Positions 474 through 47,229 of a stretch of DNA of 47,229 nucleotides are shown here, one piece after another. The notes beneath the pieces were generated by a model. That model had not been told where the DNA came from. It searched no databases and saw only the letters and a list, made by a program, of their open reading frames with translations. The stretch spans positions 1 to 47,229 of IMG/VR virus record IMGVR_UViG_3300049927_000053; one strand, given 5' to 3'. Made by a program: the position numbers and the translations under genes. Each line of letters opens with the position of its first letter. Positions within the stretch are counted from its first letter, which is position 1. The DNA comes from a virus.

Positions 474-656
474 TCACGCATCGGTCACCGTCTCGATCAG
501 GCCGTGCTGCTCCTCGTCGAGCCAGCCCTCGACGAGGGCGCAGTCAGGACACCAGCTCGTGCCGCCATCCGAGGCGGAGACATCCACGTCACCACAGCAC
601 TCGCACCAGCCGGGCCGCTGCTTGAAGTCGGAGGCGCGCAGCGTCAGCTCACTCAC
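474..656 (-). CDS. Small zinc-ribbon protein
   Basis: A 60-residue protein with two close cysteine pairs, CECC near residue 18 and CPDC near residue 36, the arrangement of a small zinc ribbon. The GTG start overlaps the stop of the small-terminase gene by 8 bases, which argues for translational coupling and for this start over upstream in-frame codons inside the terminase gene. The C-terminus is acidic. In late phage operons such proteins may assist DNA packaging or act as regulators; here the role is unknown. Confidence 0.7.
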   Translation of the reverse strand: MSELTLRASDFKQRPGWCECCGDVDVSASDGGTSWCPDCALVEGWLDEEQHGLIETVTDA

Positions 657-1170
657 TGACCGTCTCGAAATCAGGCCCGGCCGGAGGCAGCGTGGGCGCG
701 GTGCTCGCCACGATAGCGGCACGCGAGCGCAGCGCATCGAGGTGGAGCTGGCCCATGTTGAACTGGAGGTTGACCTGGGCGGCGTCGTTGCCGAACGTGG
801 CCCGGTCGTACTTGCTCGCCATCCACTGGCGCATATCGGCTTGGGCCTTGGCCTTCGCAATGGCGTCGCGGTCCTCATCGGCGCCGTCGATCAGCTCCAT
901 CGCCTGCTCGACCAAGATGGGCGCACTGTCCTTCCGAGCCTGGGCGAGCGCGGCCTTCCGCTTGGGATCCGACGCCATCCAGCCCGAGAGCACGTTGACC
1001 GAGAGGTTGATCTCGGCGGTCTTACTGAGCTGGCGGGCGATCTCGGTCATGGGCTCACCGGCGGCGACGAGCGCGCACACCACGTCCTCGGCGGTGGCGC
1101 CGTCTCCGGCTTCCGTGGCGCGCCGGTTCAGCTCGGCGAGCATGAGTCTCTTCATCGGGCTACCGGCCAT
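649..1170 (-). CDS. Terminase small subunit (TerS)
   Basis: A 173-residue protein at the head of the late strand. The N-terminal half contains a segment with helix-turn-helix character (about residues 25-65: a 'MTEIARQLSKT' helix, then a 'SVNVLSGWMAS' recognition-like helix). The C-terminal half carries the run AKAQADMRQWMASKYDRATF seen in small terminases of podovirus-like phages (W-x-A-S-K followed by the 'FG' element). It would recognise the packaging site and hand DNA to the large subunit. If the ends of the window are joined, it lies about 1.4 kb upstream of the large terminase on the same strand. The ATG start directly follows the TAA of a small upstream frame. The family call rests on pattern and context, not on a search. 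Confidence 0.75.
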   Translation of the reverse strand: MAGSPMKRLMLAELNRRATEAGDGATAEDVVCALVAAGEPMTEIARQLSKTAEINLSVNVLSGWMASDPKRKAALAQARKDSAPILVEQAMELIDGADEDRDAIAKAKAQADMRQWMASKYDRATFGNDAAQVNLQFNMGQLHLDALRSRAAIVASTAPTLPPAGPDFETVSE

Positions 1171-1299
1171 TTACATCCCGTTCCGGCGGCCGACCCATGC
1201 GAGCACGGCAATGGCGGCCAGGGCCACTCGCTCGAAGCGGAGCCCGGTCGTGGGGGTGGTGGGGAAGAGGAAGCCGAGGATCTTGGACTTGGGGCGGAT
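1171..1299 (-). CDS. Possible 42-residue membrane protein with an ATC start
   Basis: An open frame ends in TAA exactly abutting the TerS start. It contains a basic, proline-rich first half and a hydrophobic segment (about residues 24-36, 'RVALAAIAVLAWVGRR') like a single membrane helix. There is no ATG, GTG or TTG at a sensible place: the only GTG would leave 18 residues. However, a GCACCCC box lies upstream, followed after exactly 15 bases by the codon ATC, the same spacing that separates this box from the start codons at 10436, 30566 and 41499. A GAGGG Shine-Dalgarno-like run sits 7 bases before the ATC. Either the gene uses a rare ATC start, or the base is a sequencing error for ATG, or the frame is chance. 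Confidence 0.45.
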   Translation of the reverse strand: MRPKSKILGFLFPTTPTTGLRFERVALAAIAVLAWVGRRNGM

Positions 1300-1495
1300 G
1301 GGACAGTCCCTCGCGGGGTGCTGCCAGTAGGACTAGCTTGCGGAGGTGCTACCTGACTACGAGGGACGGCCTTGCGGAGCGAGGTATATCTCTATGTGCG
1401 GTTGGGCGGATTGGCCGATCTGTCGGTATATGGGGGTGCGGCGACTGCAGTCCTTCAAGATAACCCTTTCGGTCCCTCCAGGCCAGCCCCCTAAT

Positions 1496-6410: not shown

Positions 6411-6542
6411 GGCTGAGGCCGCGCGCACCAGGCGCGTTCGCAGCGCGTCACCCGAGGGAAACGGCCAGCCCCGCGCTGCGCGTCGTCCCACGGGGCCGCA
6501 GGGGATTGGGGCAACGTCCCCCGAGAAGTCCCCCGATGGGGG
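6411..6542. other. GC-rich stretch within the attP region
   Basis: No gene is seen between the tRNA-like core and promoter P2. The stretch holds GC-rich inverted words such as GCGCGTTCGCAGCGCG and the right TCCCCCGA pair. It probably belongs to the recombination site. Confidence 0.5.
6517..6539. repeat. Right TCCCCCGA pair (candidate integrase arm site)
   Basis: TCCCCCGA at 6517-6524 and 6529-6536, the same 12-base step as the left pair. It ends four bases before the TTGACT of promoter P2, so a protein bound here could also control that promoter. Confidence 0.6.
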
Positions 6543-6571
6543 TTGACTCCACAGTCATCCCATAGTATCTT
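6543..6571 (+). promoter_or_regulatory. Early promoter P2 (TTGACT-17-TATCTT)
   Basis: Second copy of the repeated promoter type, with the usual G run before TTGACT and a 17-base spacer. The start is expected near 6578, giving a leader of about 185 bases before the first gene, far longer than at the other copies. Confidence 0.8.
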
Positions 6572-6577
6572 GAAATC

Positions 6578-9704: not shown

Positions 9705-9910
9705 GCCGGGGCTGGTGGCACACCGCGCTGCCCCTGAGCCTGGCTCTGTGGCTCCTCGGGGCCCTGGCGGTCGCCTGCGGGCGGCCGGAGCCCGTGGTGG
9801 CCCGCTGGGAGCCCCGCGAGGCCCTTCCGATGACGGGAGGCACCAATTTCACCTACCCCGTATGGAGCTGGTGGAGGGACGAGCCCCGGCCGAAGCTGCT
9901 AGGGGGTTGA
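9701..9910 (+). CDS. Possible lipoprotein, 69 residues
   Basis: GTG start overlapping the HD gene's stop. The N-terminus has a short charged start, a hydrophobic stretch and a lipobox-like LGALAVAC at residues 19-26, after which a Pro/Trp-rich polar tail follows. If processed it would be a small lipoprotein anchored outside the inner membrane. Outer-membrane spanins are of this kind, but it is far from the lysis genes. The TGA stop is inside the TTGACT of promoter P3. Confidence 0.65.
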   Translation: MSRGWWHTALPLSLALWLLGALAVACGRPEPVVARWEPREALPMTGGTNFTYPVWSWWRDEPRPKLLGG

Positions 9911-9935
9911 CTCCTGCAGCAATTGGCACTATCTT
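9907..9935 (+). promoter_or_regulatory. Early promoter P3 (TTGACT-17-TATCTT)
   Basis: Third copy of the family, with the spacer word GCAATTGGC shared with the two copies near 22 kb. The start is expected near 9942. A short hairpin CGGGC-TAAC-GCCCG lies in the leader at about 9946-9959, before the HTH gene. Confidence 0.8.
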
Positions 9936-9992
9936 GAATAGCTCGGGCTAACGCCCGCCTCATTCACAGTAGTGCGAAATGCCGAGGAGCAC

Positions 9993-10401: not shown

Positions 10402-10413
10402 TACCCACAGGCC

Positions 10414-10430
10414 GCACCCCATAAGGGGCT
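10414..10430 (+). promoter_or_regulatory. GCACCCC box with CCCC-ATAA-GGGG hairpin
   Basis: GCACCCC is followed after 15 bases by the GTG of the next gene, and the AAGGGG that closes the hairpin is also the likely ribosome site. The same box and spacing occur on the minus strand before 30566 and 41499 and, with an ATC codon, before 1299. A TAGTAC hexamer 9 bases upstream could be the -10 of a promoter. Confidence 0.5.
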
Positions 10431-10435
10431 CCATC

Positions 10436-10627
10436 GTGTTCACCCTCCTGTTCATCCTCATCGCCTTCGTCGGCGGCGTGGTCCTCGGCTCGGCCGTCGA
10501 GAAGCACGTCTCGGATGTGTTCGAGTACGGCGCCGACCGCGCGCTCTCGTTCGGCACCCACCTCTGGTCAACCGTCCGGCACTTCGCCGAGGATGTCTGG
10601 CACGTCTACACCGGCAAGGCGAGCTAA
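10436..10627 (+). CDS. Single-pass membrane protein, 63 residues
   Basis: GTG start set by the GCACCCC box and AAGGGG site. The first 22 residues (VFTLLFILIAFVGGVVLGSA) form a membrane helix, and the rest is a soluble amphipathic tail with several aromatic residues. No family recognised. Nearby genes at 11313 and 11818 also encode small membrane proteins. Confidence 0.7.
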   Translation: MFTLLFILIAFVGGVVLGSAVEKHVSDVFEYGADRALSFGTHLWSTVRHFAEDVWHVYTGKAS

Positions 10628-11158: not shown

Positions 11159-11316
11159 ACGGCGCCCGCAGGGCCGCTCTCGCTCGACTCTTCGAGAAGT
11201 ACGTCGCGCGGGCGTTCCCCGGCATCGGTGGCCTGGCGAACCCGCATCACGCCGCTGGCCGCAGCCGCACCGGCGGGATCCCGTGGGTCGGCCGGAAGCG
11301 GAAGGCATCGCGATGA
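11155..11316 (+). CDS. Small basic protein, 53 residues
   Basis: GTGA and ATGA overlaps tie it to both neighbours. It is strongly basic (Arg-rich at both ends, 'GWVGRKRKASR'-like tail: PWVGRKRKASR) with a helix 'ALARLFEKYVARAF'. A nucleic-acid-binding role is possible from charge alone. Confidence 0.6.
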   Translation: MNGARRAALARLFEKYVARAFPGIGGLANPHHAAGRSRTGGIPWVGRKRKASR

Positions 11317-12587: not shown

Positions 12588-13005
12588 GACGAAGGCGCAG
12601 ATCGAGAAGGCCCAGGAGCGCGCGGACCTGCAGAAGGTCAGCATCATCTGGATCGGCATCGCCGCGACCGAGGCGAATCTCCAGCGGCTCGGCGCCCTGC
12701 TGCTGTTCGCCGACAGGGTCGAGATCAAGGCGCCGGTCGAGCTGGGTCCGCTCCCTTGGGAGGATCCGACCGACCCGCGCTATCAGCAGATCCCCGAGCT
12801 GGAGGTGGACTACGAGGTGGTGAAGCGCAGCATCGCGAAGCACCTGTCGGCTTACGTCAAGATTCACGGGGAGGAGCGCGCTCGCGCTGTCCTGAATTCG
12901 TTCGGCGCCCCGCGACTGTCCTCCGTCCCCCAGGAACAGCTCATCCCGCTCAACGCCGCGCTCGAAGCGGCGCTACAGGCTGAACCCAAGAGAGCAACCG
13001 AATGA
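12580..13005 (+). CDS. Hypothetical protein, 141 residues
   Basis: GTG start overlapping the HNH gene by 8 bases. Helical, with a basic N-terminus and, at the end, the stretch 'ARAVLNSFGAPRLSSVPQEQL', a short helix-hairpin seen at the end of many phage recombination or regulation proteins ('G...l..ip...'). The next gene ends with the same type of module (ARALLDKVGISQLGKATPEQL), so the two share a C-terminal domain. Confidence 0.7.
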   Translation: MARTKAQIEKAQERADLQKVSIIWIGIAATEANLQRLGALLLFADRVEIKAPVELGPLPWEDPTDPRYQQIPELEVDYEVVKRSIAKHLSAYVKIHGEERARAVLNSFGAPRLSSVPQEQLIPLNAALEAALQAEPKRATE

Positions 13006-15191: not shown

Positions 15192-15395
15192 GACTGCTGC
15201 CCCTAGCCACTCCCGCCACAAACTTTTCGGAGGGCGGTGATGCGACGGTCATGGCGTTTCTAGGGCGACCATGAAAGGCACCGGCGGTTCCTAGTGCAAA
15301 GGGAACAAGCGCGGCACTCTGGTGAGCGCCCCGACCGCCACCCCCCCGCAGTACAAATCCCAAACAGGAAAGGCCCCGCGAAAGAGAACAACCGC
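15192..15395 (+). promoter_or_regulatory. Leader before the ssDNA-binding gene, with two 7-codon frames
   Basis: A 204-base gap in an otherwise tight operon. GGAGGGCGGTG precedes ATG at 15240, opening a frame of only seven codons (MRRSWRF). A second seven-codon frame (MKGTGGS) starts at 15271. Equal length, tandem placement and a good ribosome site for the first recall leader peptides of attenuators, but chance is possible. I see no TTGACT promoter here. Confidence 0.35.
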
Positions 15396-19022: not shown

Positions 19023-21421
19023 GCAACGCCGAACGCCTCTTCAATGCCGGGTTCCACGATCTTATCCCCGTAATTCCCCCAGGCGCTCCGCTCGCGCCGA
19101 CCAGCAAAATCTCGGTGGCGTCGCTCGGCAAGACGCCCGGCCGTCGCCTCGACAACGGTCTGTGGGTCGGGCTGAATTGGCGGGCACTCCAGGCCACCGC
19201 CGAGGACGTGAAGCTATGGGGCCAGTGGGGCGCGAACGTCGGGCTCAAGGCCGCCCGCTTCCCCGGCGTGGACATCGACTGCGCCGACGAGGGGCTTGCT
19301 GTGATGATCGAACAGGCCGCCTTCGCACAGCTCGGGCAGGCGCCCGTGCGGATCGGCAACCCGCCGAAGCGGCTGCTGCCCTACCGGCTCGCAGGCGAGC
19401 CGTTTACACGGATGCGCCTGGTGCTGAAGCGCGGCGACAAGCAGTACCTCGTCGAGATTCTCGCGGCGGGGCAGCAGTATCTCGTAGCGGGCGTCCACCC
19501 GACCACGATGCTGCCCTATTCGTGGAGCTGGGATCCCGCCGACATCGGAGTGGAGGAGGGGCTCGGCGCAATCACCCGCGCGCAGGCGGCGCAGTTTCTT
19601 GACTACCTCGCCGAGACGCTGGGGATGCTCGGCTACGACTGCACGCGCATCGGCGATGGTTCGCCGGAGACCCGCACGGCGCGCTCGAATCAAGGCAACC
19701 TCGAAGCGCCGAGCATCGAGGAGCTGCGCGCGGCGATGGAGCTGATCCCGAACGACGACCTGTTCCCCGGCTACCCGGAATTCATAAAGATGCTGCACGC
19801 CGTACGGGCGGCGGCGGGCGCCGAGGAGGAGGACGGGTACGAGATCATGGCGGCGTGGGCGCAGAAGCGGAACAACGGGGAGGGCCCCTCGGTGAAGGGG
19901 GAGAGCGTTCGGAGCCTCTGGCGGCGAACCACGGGCCCGTTCTCGGTCGGCTGGAGCTGGATCGCTGAGTTGGCGCGTCCGCACGGCTTCAACGACGCGC
20001 CCTTCGGCACCGAGGGCGAGGCGCCGTCCACCAGCCCCACGTTCGCCGAGGCGAACGACGCGGCGGTCTACCTCTCCGATCAATGGCTGGCGCTGCGCGT
20101 CGTCGAGGCCGCAAGCGGCGTCCTCCGGTACGTGCCCGCGCAAGGGCGCTGGCTCGTGTGGGAAGGTGGGCGCTGGAGGCCCGATACCGGGCTCTTGGCC
20201 GAGGACACCGTGAAGCGCGAGCTGCGGAAGATCGCGGCGAAGATCGCCTGCATGGGCGCCACCAACAAAGAGAAGGAGGCGTTCATCGGGGCGGCGAAGG
20301 GTATCTGCTCGGGCGCCAAGGCGGCGGCGGTGCGCGTGCTCGTGCAGAGCGACCGGCGGATCGCCGTCGCGGTCGAGGCGCTCGACCATGACAAGTGGAC
20401 CCTCAACACCCCGGCCGGGATGGTGGATTTGAAGACCGGCGCCGTCATGCCCGCGCACCCCAACGCCCTCTGCACCAAGAGCACGTCGGTGGCGCCCGAC
20501 TCCACCGCGACCCCGGCCCTGTGGCTCCGGTTCCTGCACGAGGCCACCGGCGGCGATGTCGAGCTGGTGGCGTACCTGCAGCGCCTCGCGGGCTACTGCC
20601 TCACGGGCTCGACCGAGGAGCAGGTCTTCGCCTTCCTGTATGGGCCGGGCGGCAATGGCAAGGGCGTGTTCCTCAAGACGCTCCTGCGGATCCTCGCCGA
20701 CTACGGCTACAGCGCGCCGATGACCACGTTCGTGGCGTCGTCGATGGAGAAGCACCCGACCGAGATGGCGGCCATGTGCGGCGCGCGGATGGTGACGGCG
20801 AGCGAGACGCAGGCCGGGCGGCGCTGGGACGAGGCGCGGGTGAAGGGCCTGGTTGGCGGCGACCCGGTCACCGCGCACTTCATGCGCCAGGATGACTTCA
20901 CGTACTACCCCACGTTCAAGCTGCTGTTCGCGGGCAACCACAAGCCGGAGGTGCGGGATCTCGACGCGGCGATGCGGCGGCGGATCCACCTCGTGCCGTT
21001 CGTCGTCACGCCGAAGGTCATCAACAAGCGGCTGGAGGATGAGCTGGAGAGCGAATGGCCCGCCATCCTCGCGTGGATGGTGCAGGGCTGCCTCGCGTGG
21101 CAGAACGGCGGTCTGGCGGCGCCCGCGAGCGTGCTCGCCGCCACCGCGACCTACTTCGAGGAAGCCGACCCGGTCGGACAGTGGCTCAACGAGAACACCG
21201 ACCCGGCGCCCGGCGAGTGGATCGAGATCACGGCACTGTACGACTCGTGGAAGGAATGGGCGAATCGGCGCGAGGAGTACGTCGGCAAGGTCGCGCGGCT
21301 CGGCCAGATACTCGTGGCGCAGAAATACCCGAAGCGGAAGCACCCCACCAACCGCCGCTCGGAGATCGGCGGCCTCAAGATCGTCAAACGGGAAGACCCC
21401 TTGAAAGGGATGACAGCCTAA
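19019..21421 (+). CDS. Primase-polymerase / D5-like superfamily 3 helicase
   Basis: An 800-residue P4-type replication protein. The N-terminus is a prim-pol domain with D85-x-D87 in GVDIDCAD and a later 'YLVAGVHPTT' strand. A PriCT-like helical linker follows (about 240-330, 'DDLFPGYPEFIKMLHAVRAA'). The C-terminal half is a D5/SF3 helicase: Walker A GPGGNGKG (542-549), a 'RMVTASETQAGRRW' segment as B-type motif, 'FAGNHKPEV' as motif C and 'RRRIHLVPF' as the arginine end. It should prime and unwind for the PolA. GTG start overlaps the upstream stop; TAATG to the next gene. Confidence 0.9.
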   Translation: MSNAERLFNAGFHDLIPVIPPGAPLAPTSKISVASLGKTPGRRLDNGLWVGLNWRALQATAEDVKLWGQWGANVGLKAARFPGVDIDCADEGLAVMIEQAAFAQLGQAPVRIGNPPKRLLPYRLAGEPFTRMRLVLKRGDKQYLVEILAAGQQYLVAGVHPTTMLPYSWSWDPADIGVEEGLGAITRAQAAQFLDYLAETLGMLGYDCTRIGDGSPETRTARSNQGNLEAPSIEELRAAMELIPNDDLFPGYPEFIKMLHAVRAAAGAEEEDGYEIMAAWAQKRNNGEGPSVKGESVRSLWRRTTGPFSVGWSWIAELARPHGFNDAPFGTEGEAPSTSPTFAEANDAAVYLSDQWLALRVVEAASGVLRYVPAQGRWLVWEGGRWRPDTGLLAEDTVKRELRKIAAKIACMGATNKEKEAFIGAAKGICSGAKAAAVRVLVQSDRRIAVAVEALDHDKWTLNTPAGMVDLKTGAVMPAHPNALCTKSTSVAPDSTATPALWLRFLHEATGGDVELVAYLQRLAGYCLTGSTEEQVFAFLYGPGGNGKGVFLKTLLRILADYGYSAPMTTFVASSMEKHPTEMAAMCGARMVTASETQAGRRWDEARVKGLVGGDPVTAHFMRQDDFTYYPTFKLLFAGNHKPEVRDLDAAMRRRIHLVPFVVTPKVINKRLEDELESEWPAILAWMVQGCLAWQNGGLAAPASVLAATATYFEEADPVGQWLNENTDPAPGEWIEITALYDSWKEWANRREEYVGKVARLGQILVAQKYPKRKHPTNRRSEIGGLKIVKREDPLKGMTA

Positions 21422-21867
21422 TGTTCGACGCAAATAAATTCGGAAGCCTGGGGATGGGCGGCATGATCGCCCCGCCGCACGAGACCTTCCCGCAGATCGT
21501 CGTCAACACCCCGATGCCGAGCCCGCTGCCGTCCGGCAAGCAGGACCGCAAGAACCTCCCGATGGCGGCCGGGCTGCTCGACTACTTCCCGGCGGCCCTC
21601 GCGGCGGTGGCTCACGTCTCGAAGATCGGGAACGACCAGCACAACCCCGGCCAGCCGATGCACCACGCGCGGGGCAAGTCGATGGATCACGCCGACTGCA
21701 TCATTCGCCACCTCATCGAGCGCGGCACCGTGGACGACGCCGGGACGCCCCAGGAGGCGCTGCACAGCGCCAAGCTGGCCTGGCGCGCCCTGGCGCTCCT
21801 GCAGGAGGAGCTGGAGGCCGCCGGGGCCCCGCTGGCCCGAGGCGCGCGGATCTACCTAGGGGGTTGA
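21421..21867 (+). CDS. DUF5664-like dATP/dGTP diphosphohydrolase-type protein
   Basis: A 148-residue protein with the DUF5664 pattern: 'DRKNLPMAAGLLDYFPAAL', 'VSKIGNDQHNPGQPMHHAR', 'DHADCIIRHLIERGTVDD' and 'HSAKLAWRALALLQEELE'. Members are all-alpha, MazG-like, and some hydrolyse dATP/dGTP or act as MazZ. Here it could cleanse or bias nucleotide pools together with the HD protein. The TGA stop overlaps the TTGACT of promoter P4. Coupled to the primase gene by TAATG. Confidence 0.75.
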   Translation: MFDANKFGSLGMGGMIAPPHETFPQIVVNTPMPSPLPSGKQDRKNLPMAAGLLDYFPAALAAVAHVSKIGNDQHNPGQPMHHARGKSMDHADCIIRHLIERGTVDDAGTPQEALHSAKLAWRALALLQEELEAAGAPLARGARIYLGG

Positions 21868-21892
21868 CTCCTCCGGCAATTGACGCTATTAT
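21864..21892 (+). promoter_or_regulatory. Early promoter P4 (TTGACT-17-TATTAT)
   Basis: Best match of the family to the sigma70 consensus. Spacer word CCTCCGGCAATTG is shared exactly with P5. Expected start near 21899, directly at the first arm of a hairpin that can cover the ribosome site of the following gene. Confidence 0.85.
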
Positions 21893-21897
21893 CAACA

Positions 21898-22126: not shown

Positions 22127-22149
22127 GCTAGGCCAGTTGCCGGGGGGGG

Positions 22150-22178
22150 TTGACTCCTCCGGCAATTGGCGTTATACT
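22150..22178 (+). promoter_or_regulatory. Early promoter P5 (TTGACT-17-TATACT)
   Basis: Fifth copy, with the same CCTCCGGCAATTG spacer word as P4. The start is expected at about 22185, practically on the ATG of the next gene (22186), which also lacks a ribosome site. The transcript is therefore probably leaderless. Confidence 0.85.
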
Positions 22179-22185
22179 CAATGCC

Positions 22186-23102: not shown

Positions 23103-23144
23103 TCCCCCCTATTTCCACAGGAAGCACCCCATGAAAGAATGTCA

Positions 23145-23717: not shown

Positions 23718-23791
23718 GCGCCTCTAGCTCAACTGGTTAGAGCAGCCGACTCTTAATCGGCAGGTTCTCGGTTCGACTCCGAGGGGGCGCA
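23718..23791 (+). tRNA. tRNA-Lys (anticodon CUU)
   Basis: A complete cloverleaf: acceptor GCGCCTC/GGGGCGC (one G-U pair), D arm GCTC/GAGC, anticodon stem GCCGA/TCGGC with loop CTCTTAA giving CUU, T arm CTCGG-TTCGACT-CCGAG, and A as discriminator. CCA is not encoded. It reads AAG, the preferred Lys codon of a GC-rich genome. Its 3' end supplies the GAGGGG ribosome site of the following gene. It differs from the tRNA-like half at the attP core. Confidence 0.95.
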
Positions 23792-27228: not shown

Positions 27229-27262
27229 TTAGATCATTCTCGGGGCCCTTCCAGTGAGAGAG

Positions 27263-30566: not shown

Positions 30567-30720
30567 GGGAGAGCCCCTAATGGGGTGCTGCCTGTATAAC
30601 GCGGGGCGAGTCGGCGGGGGTGAGCCCCTAAAGGGGTTCGGGCCGGGTGCTCGGGGATTTTGTAGGGGAGTCGGGCCGGATCTGGCCCGCCCTAAATATA
30701 ACCGTTTGCGGTGGTGCGGG
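30567..30720 (-). promoter_or_regulatory. Intergenic hairpins and promoter-like element
   Basis: No gene. On the minus strand it holds CGGTTATATTTAGG (30704-30691), like elements at 37740 and 44175, then two copies of a CCCC-loop-GGGGCTC hairpin (about 30625-30642 and 30574-30585), the second being the GCACCCC box of the next gene. TTATAC lies just before that box. This looks like an internal late promoter and leader. Confidence 0.5.
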
Positions 30721-30870: not shown

Positions 30871-30898
30871 GTGGGGCTCCAAGGGGACTGCCTGTTGG

Positions 30899-31915
30899 TT
30901 ACCAGAAGGGCATGTAGCGCGTGGTGCCATTGATCGAGACCGGCACCCAGCCCTGCGGCGCCCCGGCTGTGGAGCCAGTAGGCCCGGTGCTTCCCAGCGT
31001 GACCGCGACCGCCGCATTAACGGCGCTGCTGTCGTAGCGTAGCGCGGGAGCCGTGGCCTTAAGGCGCAACTGCCCGGCCTGGGTGAGCACCATCTGCTCA
31101 ACGGCGTTCACTTCAAAAACGATGGCGCCGTCATCGCCGGTCGGCGTGCCCGGCTGCCCGCACTGCAACAGGAATTGCCCTCTTCGACCCGCCCCGGCGC
31201 CATTACCGAATAGCTGGAACGACGACCCGTGCGTCTGCCCGAGCGCCGAGCCCCCGGCGAACGTCACTCGGTTGTTGTCGTTGGCGTGCAGGATCGACGG
31301 GATGCTCGCGGAGAGGATGATGTTGCGCGAGGAGTAGATGTCCCTCGGCCGGTGGGTCGCGTCTCCGATGTCGAGCGAGTTATCCGTGAACAGCAGATTG
31401 CCGGTGAGCGTCCCGCCTGTCAGAGCCAACCAGCGCGCATCGCCCAGGCTGTTGAAGTCGGTGATGCCGTACCCGGCAATCGTCGTCGGCTTGGACGCCA
31501 ACTGCGCGAAGGTGTAATCGTTCGCGGCAGCAACCACTGTTCCCGACCGGCCGAACACGGTATTGGTGAGCGTGTCCGTGATGCCGTAGCCGGAGATCGT
31601 CGTCGGCTTCGACGCCAACTGCGCGAAGGTGTAGTCGTTCGCGGCGGCGACCACCGCCCCCGAGCGGCCGAACACGGTATTGGTGAGCGTGTCCGTAATG
31701 CCGTAGCCCGAGATCGTCGTCGGCTTCCCCGTGAGCGACGCGAAGGTGTGCGTGTGCCCGAGCGGCGAGTAGAGGAGATCGGCTTGCGCCTTCGTGAAGG
31801 TTCCGGCGAGGCCCTGGATGCTCGTGAGGAAGGTTTCCAAGGACCGACGAAGTTCGGCCTGGTCTCGCTGGTTGTAGCTGGCCGGTGGCGCCGGGAGTCG
31901 AACAGTGCCGCTCAC
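30899..31915 (-). CDS. Tail fibre with 39-residue repeats
   Basis: A 338-residue fibre. After a short virion-binding N-terminus come three copies of a 39-residue repeat ending 'KPTTISGYGITD' with 'VFGRSGAVVAAANDYTFAQL' in the link, a typical phage fibre repeat that forms a triple beta structure. A receptor-type C-terminal half follows. The GTG start overlaps the upstream stop (GTGA), so it is coupled to the large tail protein. Repeat-number change would alter fibre length. Confidence 0.85.
   Translation of the reverse strand: MSGTVRLPAPPASYNQRDQAELRRSLETFLTSIQGLAGTFTKAQADLLYSPLGHTHTFASLTGKPTTISGYGITDTLTNTVFGRSGAVVAAANDYTFAQLASKPTTISGYGITDTLTNTVFGRSGTVVAAANDYTFAQLASKPTTIAGYGITDFNSLGDARWLALTGGTLTGNLLFTDNSLDIGDATHRPRDIYSSRNIILSASIPSILHANDNNRVTFAGGSALGQTHGSSFQLFGNGAGAGRRGQFLLQCGQPGTPTGDDGAIVFEVNAVEQMVLTQAGQLRLKATAPALRYDSSAVNAAVAVTLGSTGPTGSTAGAPQGWVPVSINGTTRYMPFW
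31458..31740 (-). repeat. 117-base coding repeats in the fibre gene
   Basis: The word for 'GYGITD' recurs with a 117-base step (forward-strand GTGATGCCGT at 31461 and 31578, GTAATGCCGT at 31695). The second and third units are nearly identical over most of their length, which suggests recent duplication or gene conversion. Confidence 0.85.
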
Positions 31916-36570: not shown

Positions 36571-36828
36571 TTACTGTGAGTCTCCGGGGGTGATGCCTGT
36601 GGATTCGGGGTCGGCCCCCGGTGTGCGTCGCATCGAGGCGACGTATTTGAAAATGCGGGGTCCGCCAGCCCATCCGATGAGGGCGAGGGAGATCTCGGTA
36701 AGGGATCTCCAGACTTCGTCGGTGCGGTCAGGGCCGTGTAGCGCGAGCCAGAGGATCGAGGCGAGGGTGGCCCACATCGCGCAGCGCGAGGAGCTGACTT
36801 TGCCCTGCTCGTCGCGGAGCAGACTCAC
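36571..36828 (-). CDS. Holin-like membrane protein, 85 residues
   Basis: Two hydrophobic stretches ('CAMWATLASILWLALHG' and 'ISLALIGWAGGPRIFKYV') with short loops, GTG start overlapping the XhlA-like stop. Two-helix proteins next to a signal-less endolysin are usually holins. The polar C-terminus is proline and threonine rich. Confidence 0.7.
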   Translation of the reverse strand: MSLLRDEQGKVSSSRCAMWATLASILWLALHGPDRTDEVWRSLTEISLALIGWAGGPRIFKYVASMRRTPGADPESTGITPGDSQ

Positions 36829-39331: not shown

Positions 39332-39395
39332 GGTTGAGGGTTTCCGGGGTTCAGCCGGTGAAGTACAGGAGGGGCCCGGCCGAGCCCCATCCCTT

Positions 39396-39437
39396 CTACA
39401 GCACGGGCATGAAGGCCCGGCATCCTACTTCCCACAC
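39396..39437 (-). CDS. Possible 13-residue gene behind a GCACCCT box
   Basis: Between capsid and spanin-like genes the minus strand has GCAGCACCCT, and exactly 15 bases later GTG opens a 13-codon frame (VWEVGCRAFMPVL). The box and spacing are those seen before three larger genes, but no ribosome site is visible. It is kept because of the spacing only. Confidence 0.25.
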   Translation of the reverse strand: MWEVGCRAFMPVL

Positions 39438-40491: not shown

Positions 40492-41499
40492 TTAGTCGTC
40501 CAGCATTGCAAAAAATGCGGCTGCGGCGTCTTCCACCTTGCCGGTATTCGCGAGTCGCAAACGCGCCTTCGTTGTATCGCTCACCTTGGGCTTCGGCGTC
40601 GCCGCCGGGCCGGGGGTGGCCGTCCTGATCTTGTCGATGCGAGCCTGAATCACAGGCTTTTTCGCCTGGGACTCATCGTACAGCATCGCCTTGCGGAGCA
40701 GCAGCAGATTCCGGTGGTCGGTGACCTTGCCGAGATCCTCCTGCGTCCATCCCAGCTTGTCGGCGTAGGCCACCATCTTGGCCCGCTCCGTCGTCGCTAC
40801 CTTCTCGTCCTTCCAGTCGGGCAGCGCGGCGAGCAACTTCTCGTGCTCTCCCGCGATGTGCGTCTCCAGTGCCTTCTGCTGGTCGGCATTGACGGCGGCT
40901 ACGGCCCGATCCTTCTCGGCCTTGAGCTGCGTCATCTCGTCTGAATGGATCTGGTAGCGGGCGTACTCGGACGCGAATTCCTCGGGGGTTGCGGTCTGCT
41001 GCAACTTGGCCCAATCCGGTTCGGGTGCGCTGTTCTGCTGGATGGCCTGCTCCAACTGCGTCAGGTACGTCGCGTACTTCTGGCGCTCACCACGCACCGC
41101 AACCTGCTCGGTCTCGAACGCTTTGCGCTCGGCCGCTGCAGCCTGCGTCTTGCGGGTGTAATCCGCCGTCCGCGAATAGCCCTTCAGGGCCTCATCGAGG
41201 GTAACCTCGGTCTCGACGCCGTCGATCTTGACCTTGACCTTCAAGGTGGGATCGAGCGCGACGGACTCGGGGGTCTCTTCGACACCTTCGGGGGTCTCTT
41301 CAGCGGTTTCGGGGGTTTCGGCGGATTCGCCCTCGGTCTCGACCACCTCGGCGGCGGTCTCGACTTCTTTGGGCTCCGGGGCCTCGACTACGGCTTCCGG
41401 CTGCGTCTCGGGAACCGGCTCTGTATCCTCGTGGGAGAGCCACTTCTCGAAGCTGGGGACTGCGGATGAGACGGTGGAATGCTCCGTGCCGTCAACCAT
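40492..41499 (-). CDS. Capsid scaffold protein
   Basis: A 335-residue, acidic and helical protein directly before the capsid gene. The first 80 residues are low in complexity (Glu, Thr, Pro, Val). Then comes 'KVKIDGVETEVTLDEALKGY' and long coiled coils. This is the usual scaffold layout. The ATG has AAGGAG 9 bases upstream and lies 15 bases after a GCACCCC box. Confidence 0.8.
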   Translation of the reverse strand: MVDGTEHSTVSSAVPSFEKWLSHEDTEPVPETQPEAVVEAPEPKEVETAAEVVETEGESAETPETAEETPEGVEETPESVALDPTLKVKVKIDGVETEVTLDEALKGYSRTADYTRKTQAAAAERKAFETEQVAVRGERQKYATYLTQLEQAIQQNSAPEPDWAKLQQTATPEEFASEYARYQIHSDEMTQLKAEKDRAVAAVNADQQKALETHIAGEHEKLLAALPDWKDEKVATTERAKMVAYADKLGWTQEDLGKVTDHRNLLLLRKAMLYDESQAKKPVIQARIDKIRTATPGPAATPKPKVSDTTKARLRLANTGKVEDAAAAFFAMLDD

Positions 41500-41531
41500 A
41501 CAAGATAACTCCTTGGGGTGCTGCGCGCAAG

Positions 41532-47001: not shown

Positions 47002-47049
47002 CGACCTACCTCAAGTGGTTCTTCCTGTTGTGGTTGTAGGATTTTTTTC

Positions 47050-47229
47050 AGAGCGCCCCATTGACCCGGCCATTTCCCAGGCCACCCGCCCTTTTCCGCG
47101 AAGGGGGGGGCGCGGCCTATCCCCAGCCTGGCACGCTGCTTGCCCTCGCCAGCCTGAGCGCCTGCTCACCCGTGGATCTACCCCGATGCGATGGGCGATG
47201 CGTGCCCTAACCCCATGTGCTCGTGTGCG
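47050..47229. repeat. Direct terminal repeat, right copy
   Basis: Copy of the first 181 bases, with eight G (47103-47110) where the left copy has nine. It is preceded by a run of seven T. If this is a physical end, the duplicated unit lies between the terminase genes on the late strand. Confidence 0.9.

Follow-up and report, generated by a model that had tools for sequence, protein, structure and literature searches.

Genome organization and relatives

The window, i.e. the whole stretch of DNA analysed, was the 47,229-base uncultured bacterial virus record IMGVR_UViG_3300049927_000053. An identical direct repeat of 180 bp at the record ends (1-180 = 47050-47229) makes the record terminally complete or circular, with a unique circle of 47,049 bp. 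Rightward genes extended from 1889 to 23708 and leftward genes from 47001 down to ~24127, plus the gene of the terminase small subunit (TerS, 1170-649) across the ends, and the two operons diverged from 1300-1888. The gene starts were our own predictions, made by a caller that used no information on the sequence element described below. Two stop-free segments of coding-like composition, 11188-11304 (+) and 15298-15357 (+), were omitted by the caller and are possibly extra small genes or wrong starts. Where the two operons converged, a tRNA-Lys(CTT) was located (23718-23791, +), its DNA 86-88 % identical to mycobacteriophage tRNA-Lys, e.g., of Lolly9 and MiniLon; an Rfam search of the window revealed tRNA only. 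The gene 30899-31915 (-) contained three tandem repeat units of 117 bp at 117-bp spacing (31457-31749).

This virus shared ~38-49 % identity with its kin, phages of the phiM5 type that have an SU10-like portal. Terminase, SU10-type portal, scaffold and capsid modules were common to the window, Sinorhizobium phage phiM5 and the Manatee Spring phages (MF074189, MW202711, MW202496). Searches of viral contigs with TerL, capsid, portal, TerS and primase yielded distant kin or nothing, and no close relative. Genome contigs contained no match to TerS, nor to the element with its downstream bases as DNA; tblastn in phages gave no match to TerS or to the 42-residue peptide encoded ahead of it, for which the phage collection offered no known relative, and the DNA of 1100-1400 had no meaningful match among phages and plasmids.

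A 14-base word upstream of gene starts

The 14-base word ACAGGCAGCACCCC, hereafter the box, recurred on the sense strand just upstream of about a dozen gene starts (Table 1). In the form ACAGGMAGMACCCC it stood 11-16 nt before the starts of nine genes and 13-19 nt before those of three weaker ones. The earlier note had described a GCACCCC start box followed by a fixed step of 15 bases. The tie to gene starts held, the 7-mer did not, as the true word is the longer and looser 14-mer; nor is the step fixed, since the spacing varied from 11 to 16 nt (weak copies up to 19) with 15 as the modal value. GCACCCC did occur with 15 bases before GTG 10436, ATG 30566 and ATG 41499 and with 14 before 23145; full copies were present at 10436, 23145 and 30566, only a half copy at 41499. 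The short frame at 39437 (CACCCT, GTG, 13 codons) lacked the ACAGG half and is not preceded by a box. Six copies had been listed, and five had been missed, namely those before 36570, 13002, 39331, 30870 and 47001.

Table 1 Boxes, leader open reading frame and TerS gene in the window
Feature	Sequence	Position	Strand	Remark
TerS gene		649..1170	-	phrog_1482 1.4e-14; Pfam Sf6_terminase 2.3e-13
42-codon ORF, putative ATC start	IRPKSKILGFLFPTTPTTGLRFERVALAAIAVLAWVGRRNGM	1171..1299	-	in frame with TerS; TAA directly before TerS ATG
Ribosome-binding site	GAGGG	1308..1312	-	8 nt before ATC; anti-SD duplex -6.8 kcal/mol
Box	ACTGGCAGCACCCC	1315..1328	-	15 nt upstream of ATC 1299; 5th-best match genome-wide
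Box	ACAGGCCGCACCCC	10407..10420	+	15 nt before GTG 10436
Box	ACAGGCTGAACCCA	12975..12988	+	13 nt before ATG 13002; inside end of upstream gene
Weaker box	ACAGGAAAGGCCCC	15364..15377	+	18 nt before ATG 15396 (ssDNA-binding protein)
Weaker box	ACGGGAAGACCCCT	21388..21401	+	19 nt before ATG 21421
Box	ACAGGAAGCACCCC	23117..23130	+	14 nt before ATG 23145
Weaker box	ACTGGAAGGGCCCC	27242..27255	-	13 nt before GTG 27228
Box (consensus)	ACAGGCAGCACCCC	30582..30595	-	15 nt before ATG 30566
Box	ACAGGCAGTCCCCT	30882..30895	-	11 nt before ATG 30870; ribosome site TTGGAG abuts box
Box	ACAGGCATCACCCC	36587..36600	-	16 nt before ATG 36570; inside end of upstream gene
Box	ACCGGCTGAACCCC	39346..39359	-	14 nt before ATG 39331
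Half box	GCGCGCAGCACCCC	41515..41528	-	15 nt before ATG 41499 (head scaffolding protein)
Box	ACAGGAAGAACCAC	47015..47028	-	13 nt before ATG 47001

The short word GCACCCC was found 18 times on both strands versus 11.9 expected. The earlier note had named a step to start codons as common as chance as grounds against its claim, and the answer depended on the count. A start triplet of any kind at exactly +15 followed 3/18 copies (P=0.026), and 4/24 copies of GCACCC[CT] (P=0.010), weak values for a rule that had been picked post hoc; counted against predicted gene starts only, 3/18 corresponded to a P of about 5e-7. With up to three mismatches the 14-mer had 21 matches versus 7.07 expected, a number reached in 0/100 shuffles, and the copies with at most one mismatch were all (5/5) situated just upstream of a gene start, if the ATC is counted as one. 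An iterated weight matrix gave nine top sites, eight of which preceded predicted gene starts by 11-16 nt in sense orientation. The ninth, rank 5 genome-wide, was the site at 1328, the only one of the nine without a predicted gene start and the only top-ranked box (1328-1315) without ATG, GTG or TTG downstream; 15 nt downstream of it is an ATC.

The position of the box was reproduced across strands. A matrix built from six minus-strand sites ranked the three known plus-strand sites, among them the box of 13002, at the top; their distances to starts were 13-15 nt, and the allowed start zone made up 1.3 % of positions by chance. A matrix from these three plus-strand sites returned as its five best minus-strand matches four sites at 13-16 nt and the ATC site. 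Matches fell into eight start zones in sense orientation, compared with 0.09 for zones drawn at random (at most 2 in 2000), and into no antisense zone; this enrichment is partly circular because the same sites had built the matrix. In a search without seed, ACAGGCAGCACCCC was the most recurrent 14-mer across all upstream zones: eight others agreed with it in at least 11 of 14 positions, against no more than 5 after shuffling. Coding-internal control segments attained a recurrence of 8 in 4/40 trials, thus recurrence alone is moderate evidence and position the strong one. A general EM motif search, driven by codon bias, did not recover the box, and one high-scoring match, 31168 (+), was away from any start. 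Enrichment, position and the cross-strand hold-out support the view of the earlier note that the box is specific to the phage and linked to gene starts.

Genes behind a box were mostly not translationally coupled to the upstream gene: an upstream gap below 5 nt was present in 3/12 of them versus about 73 % of the other genes (Fisher P=0.002). Their ribosome sites tended to be weaker, a borderline difference (P 0.035-0.08) that is slightly biased by the ribosome-site bonus of the start caller. A CCCC-GGGG hairpin over the ribosome site was seen at 10436 and 30566 only; as a common feature it was rejected, no common fold being present around the boxes. Pairing of the box with the 16S rRNA outside the anti-SD was dropped as an explanation because box variants break the pairing.

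The open reading frame ahead of the TerS gene

On the minus strand, GCACCCC (1321-1315), 15 bases and ATC 1299 followed each other, and the 42-codon frame opened by this ATC ended with a TAA that adjoins the TerS ATG at 1170, both as previously described. The frame had an in-frame TAG 12 codons upstream of the ATC, and from there no ATG, GTG or TTG until GTG 1227. Its GC content by codon position (0.62/0.55/0.93) was close to that of the large genes (0.66/0.48/0.88). The codon score was 17.9 versus 18.5 (sd 6.5) in windows of real genes and was reached by 0/2426 wrong-frame windows, whereas the 11 codons before the ATC scored -1.1. CTG at 1306, the only near-cognate alternative in range, opened a strongly non-coding frame and was placed on the ribosome site. 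That site, GAGGG, was partly enclosed in a GGGA-CTG-TCCC hairpin. The peptide had been called membrane-helix-like, a weak likeness: its hydrophobic stretch comprised only ~13 residues, and the best 19-residue Kyte-Doolittle mean was 1.37.

In the simplest reading of these sequence features, 1299-1171 is a real small gene whose start codon would be ATC, or an ATG that was misread. Support for the non-standard ATC start which the earlier note had suggested comes from coding signal, ribosome site and box; the prediction is a gene that all standard gene callers would miss. Further upstream, at 1328-1380 (-), a 16-nt word occurred in two similar forms, CTCCGCAAGCTAGTCC and CTCCGCAAGGCCGTCC, and the 1328 box was preceded at a distance of 28 nt by a degenerate second one, TCAGGTAGCACCTC (1356-1343, -).

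Proposed role of the box and alternative explanations

From the sequence, orientation, position and enrichment of the box we infer a role in translation, and we lean slightly towards the view that it is a start-associated sequence acting in the mRNA, with a leader reading frame initiated at ATC and coupled to TerS. The box would stand directly 5' of the Shine-Dalgarno site in genes that start translation on their own, uncoupled from the upstream gene, and would mark or boost initiation there, by itself or through a bound phage or host protein. At the head of the leftward operon, box and GAGGG would serve the 42-codon leader. Its coding signal, ribosome site and abutting stop and start codons suggest that ATC is used, at a low level maintained by poor initiation on a codon of the type repressed by IF3, and that TerS may be translated largely via re-initiation at the adjoining TAA-ATG. 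Such a re-initiation is suggested by the moderate ribosome site of TerS itself (-4.6) together with the abutting codons. A more specific proposal has a modest chance of being right: the phage may recognise the starts of its uncoupled genes by a sequence of its own, the box, to which an RNA-binding factor of phage or host would attach, and may use it to drive a true AUC start; the poor efficiency of this start would then determine how much leader is made and, through re-initiation, how much TerS.

An ATG as the true start of the leader, with ATC 1299 as consensus error or assembly variant and all else as in the preferred mRNA reading, is rather unlikely. Every other strong box leads to ATG or GTG and the record is an environmental virus assembly; however, neither a second copy nor a relative showed an ATG, position 1299 is outside the terminal repeat, and ATC is known as the start of infC in Streptomyces (PMC5472188).

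The earlier note had read the box as a promoter with a fixed 5' end. On that account the box would be a phage-specific promoter or 5'-end element, used by a phage-modified or phage-activated RNA polymerase, and transcripts with a short leader would start in or just before it. The sense orientation, the near-constant distance to starts, a TATACA near the 30595 box and the putative SigA promoters in the extended start-associated sequences of cluster K phages (PMC11373665) are consistent with this, but the reading did not stand up well and is unlikely. The spacing varies over 11-19 nt, and a shared -10 element was lacking, the best matches being 3-4 of 6 at scattered positions. Boxes also occurred mid-operon on both strands, three of them inside or overlapping upstream genes. 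Since box and ribosome site are directly adjacent at 30895, a transcript carrying this ribosome site has to include at least the box end, which excludes a transcript start downstream of the box and favours an mRNA element acting at translation initiation. Finally, the sigma70-like promoters of the window belong to a separate repeat. This 37-bp repeat, GGGGGTTGACTCCTCCGGCAATTGACGCTATTATCAA, was present in four copies on the plus strand (6538-6574, 9902-9938, 21859-21895, 22145-22181) and carried TTGACT-17-TATTAT with a conserved spacer; judged by these motifs, the copies are likely sigma70-type promoters of the rightward operon.

It is distinctly improbable that translation of 1299-1171 does not begin at ATC, the frame being a 5' leader or contributing only its last 18 codons from GTG 1227. 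GTG 1227 is the sole canonical in-frame start and the hairpin covers part of the ATC ribosome site, but GTG 1227 lacked a box and had next to no ribosome site (-2.5 at 14 nt), and the codons 2-24 upstream of it scored as coding, their score of 11.1 being attained in 9/11181 wrong-frame windows and in 0/1971 intergenic ones. Least of all do we expect an operator or stoperator-like DNA site at which a phage regulator silences or times transcription at gene boundaries: the boxes share with L5-like stoperators that these are short asymmetric repeats of one orientation in small intergenic gaps, but their position is tight relative to start codons and no repressor was among the proteins searched, which covered part of the genes.

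Comparison with known systems

By analogy, the box is similar in kind to the start-associated sequences (SAS) of cluster K mycobacteriophages (Pope 2011, PMC3203893), a study that sets stoperators in contrast to SAS, but is not a member of them. Both are short asymmetric repeats of which a genome carries roughly twelve copies or more and which other phages lack; with few exceptions the copies point in the sense direction and lie at the starts of only some genes, and their conservation extends beyond Shine-Dalgarno pairing. In sequence they are unrelated: the 13-bp SAS consensus GGGATAGGAGCCC had no match with up to two mismatches in the window. SAS contain the Shine-Dalgarno core (AGGAG, 3-7 bp away) and lie 3-9 bp from the start codon, whereas the box is upstream of the ribosome site, at 11-16 nt (weak copies to 19); SAS are confined to the non-structural arm, whereas boxes occur in structural and non-structural operons, including the scaffold gene. 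The extended SAS (ESAS; PMC3203893, PMC11373665) resemble the box as conserved elements that precede the ribosome site in selected genes, but consist of a 17-bp inverted repeat with -35/-10 hexamers, neither of which was found with the box.

Outside the window the box did not form a comparable pattern. In 262 other loci (2.5 Mb) its matrix gave only one to three scattered matches in any locus and no multi-copy pattern at gene starts, and the box+ATG pattern was found in 98 stretches of viral contigs, with a single match each among the 80 listed. The three full relatives among the phiM5 and Manatee Spring phages had neither the box nor a comparable start-zone repeat.

For the ATC start, infC and sigR are the closest precedents: infC starts with ATT in E. 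coli and with ATC in Streptomyces, sigR with GTC, and IF3 represses such codons (PMC5472188). As in these genes, the leader is a coding frame without usable canonical start in a high-GC genome, with an ATC-type codon behind a good ribosome site, which fits a low, IF3-sensitive translation. An ATC start would make translation of the leader weak and IF3-sensitive, as for infC and sigR. In contrast to them, the putative start belongs to a phage leader reading frame abutting TerS. SAS have been described mainly for one group of mycobacteriophages, where their role is still unexplained; the occurrence of an unrelated example with another placement, in a phiM5-like phage, suggests that start codes arise repeatedly.
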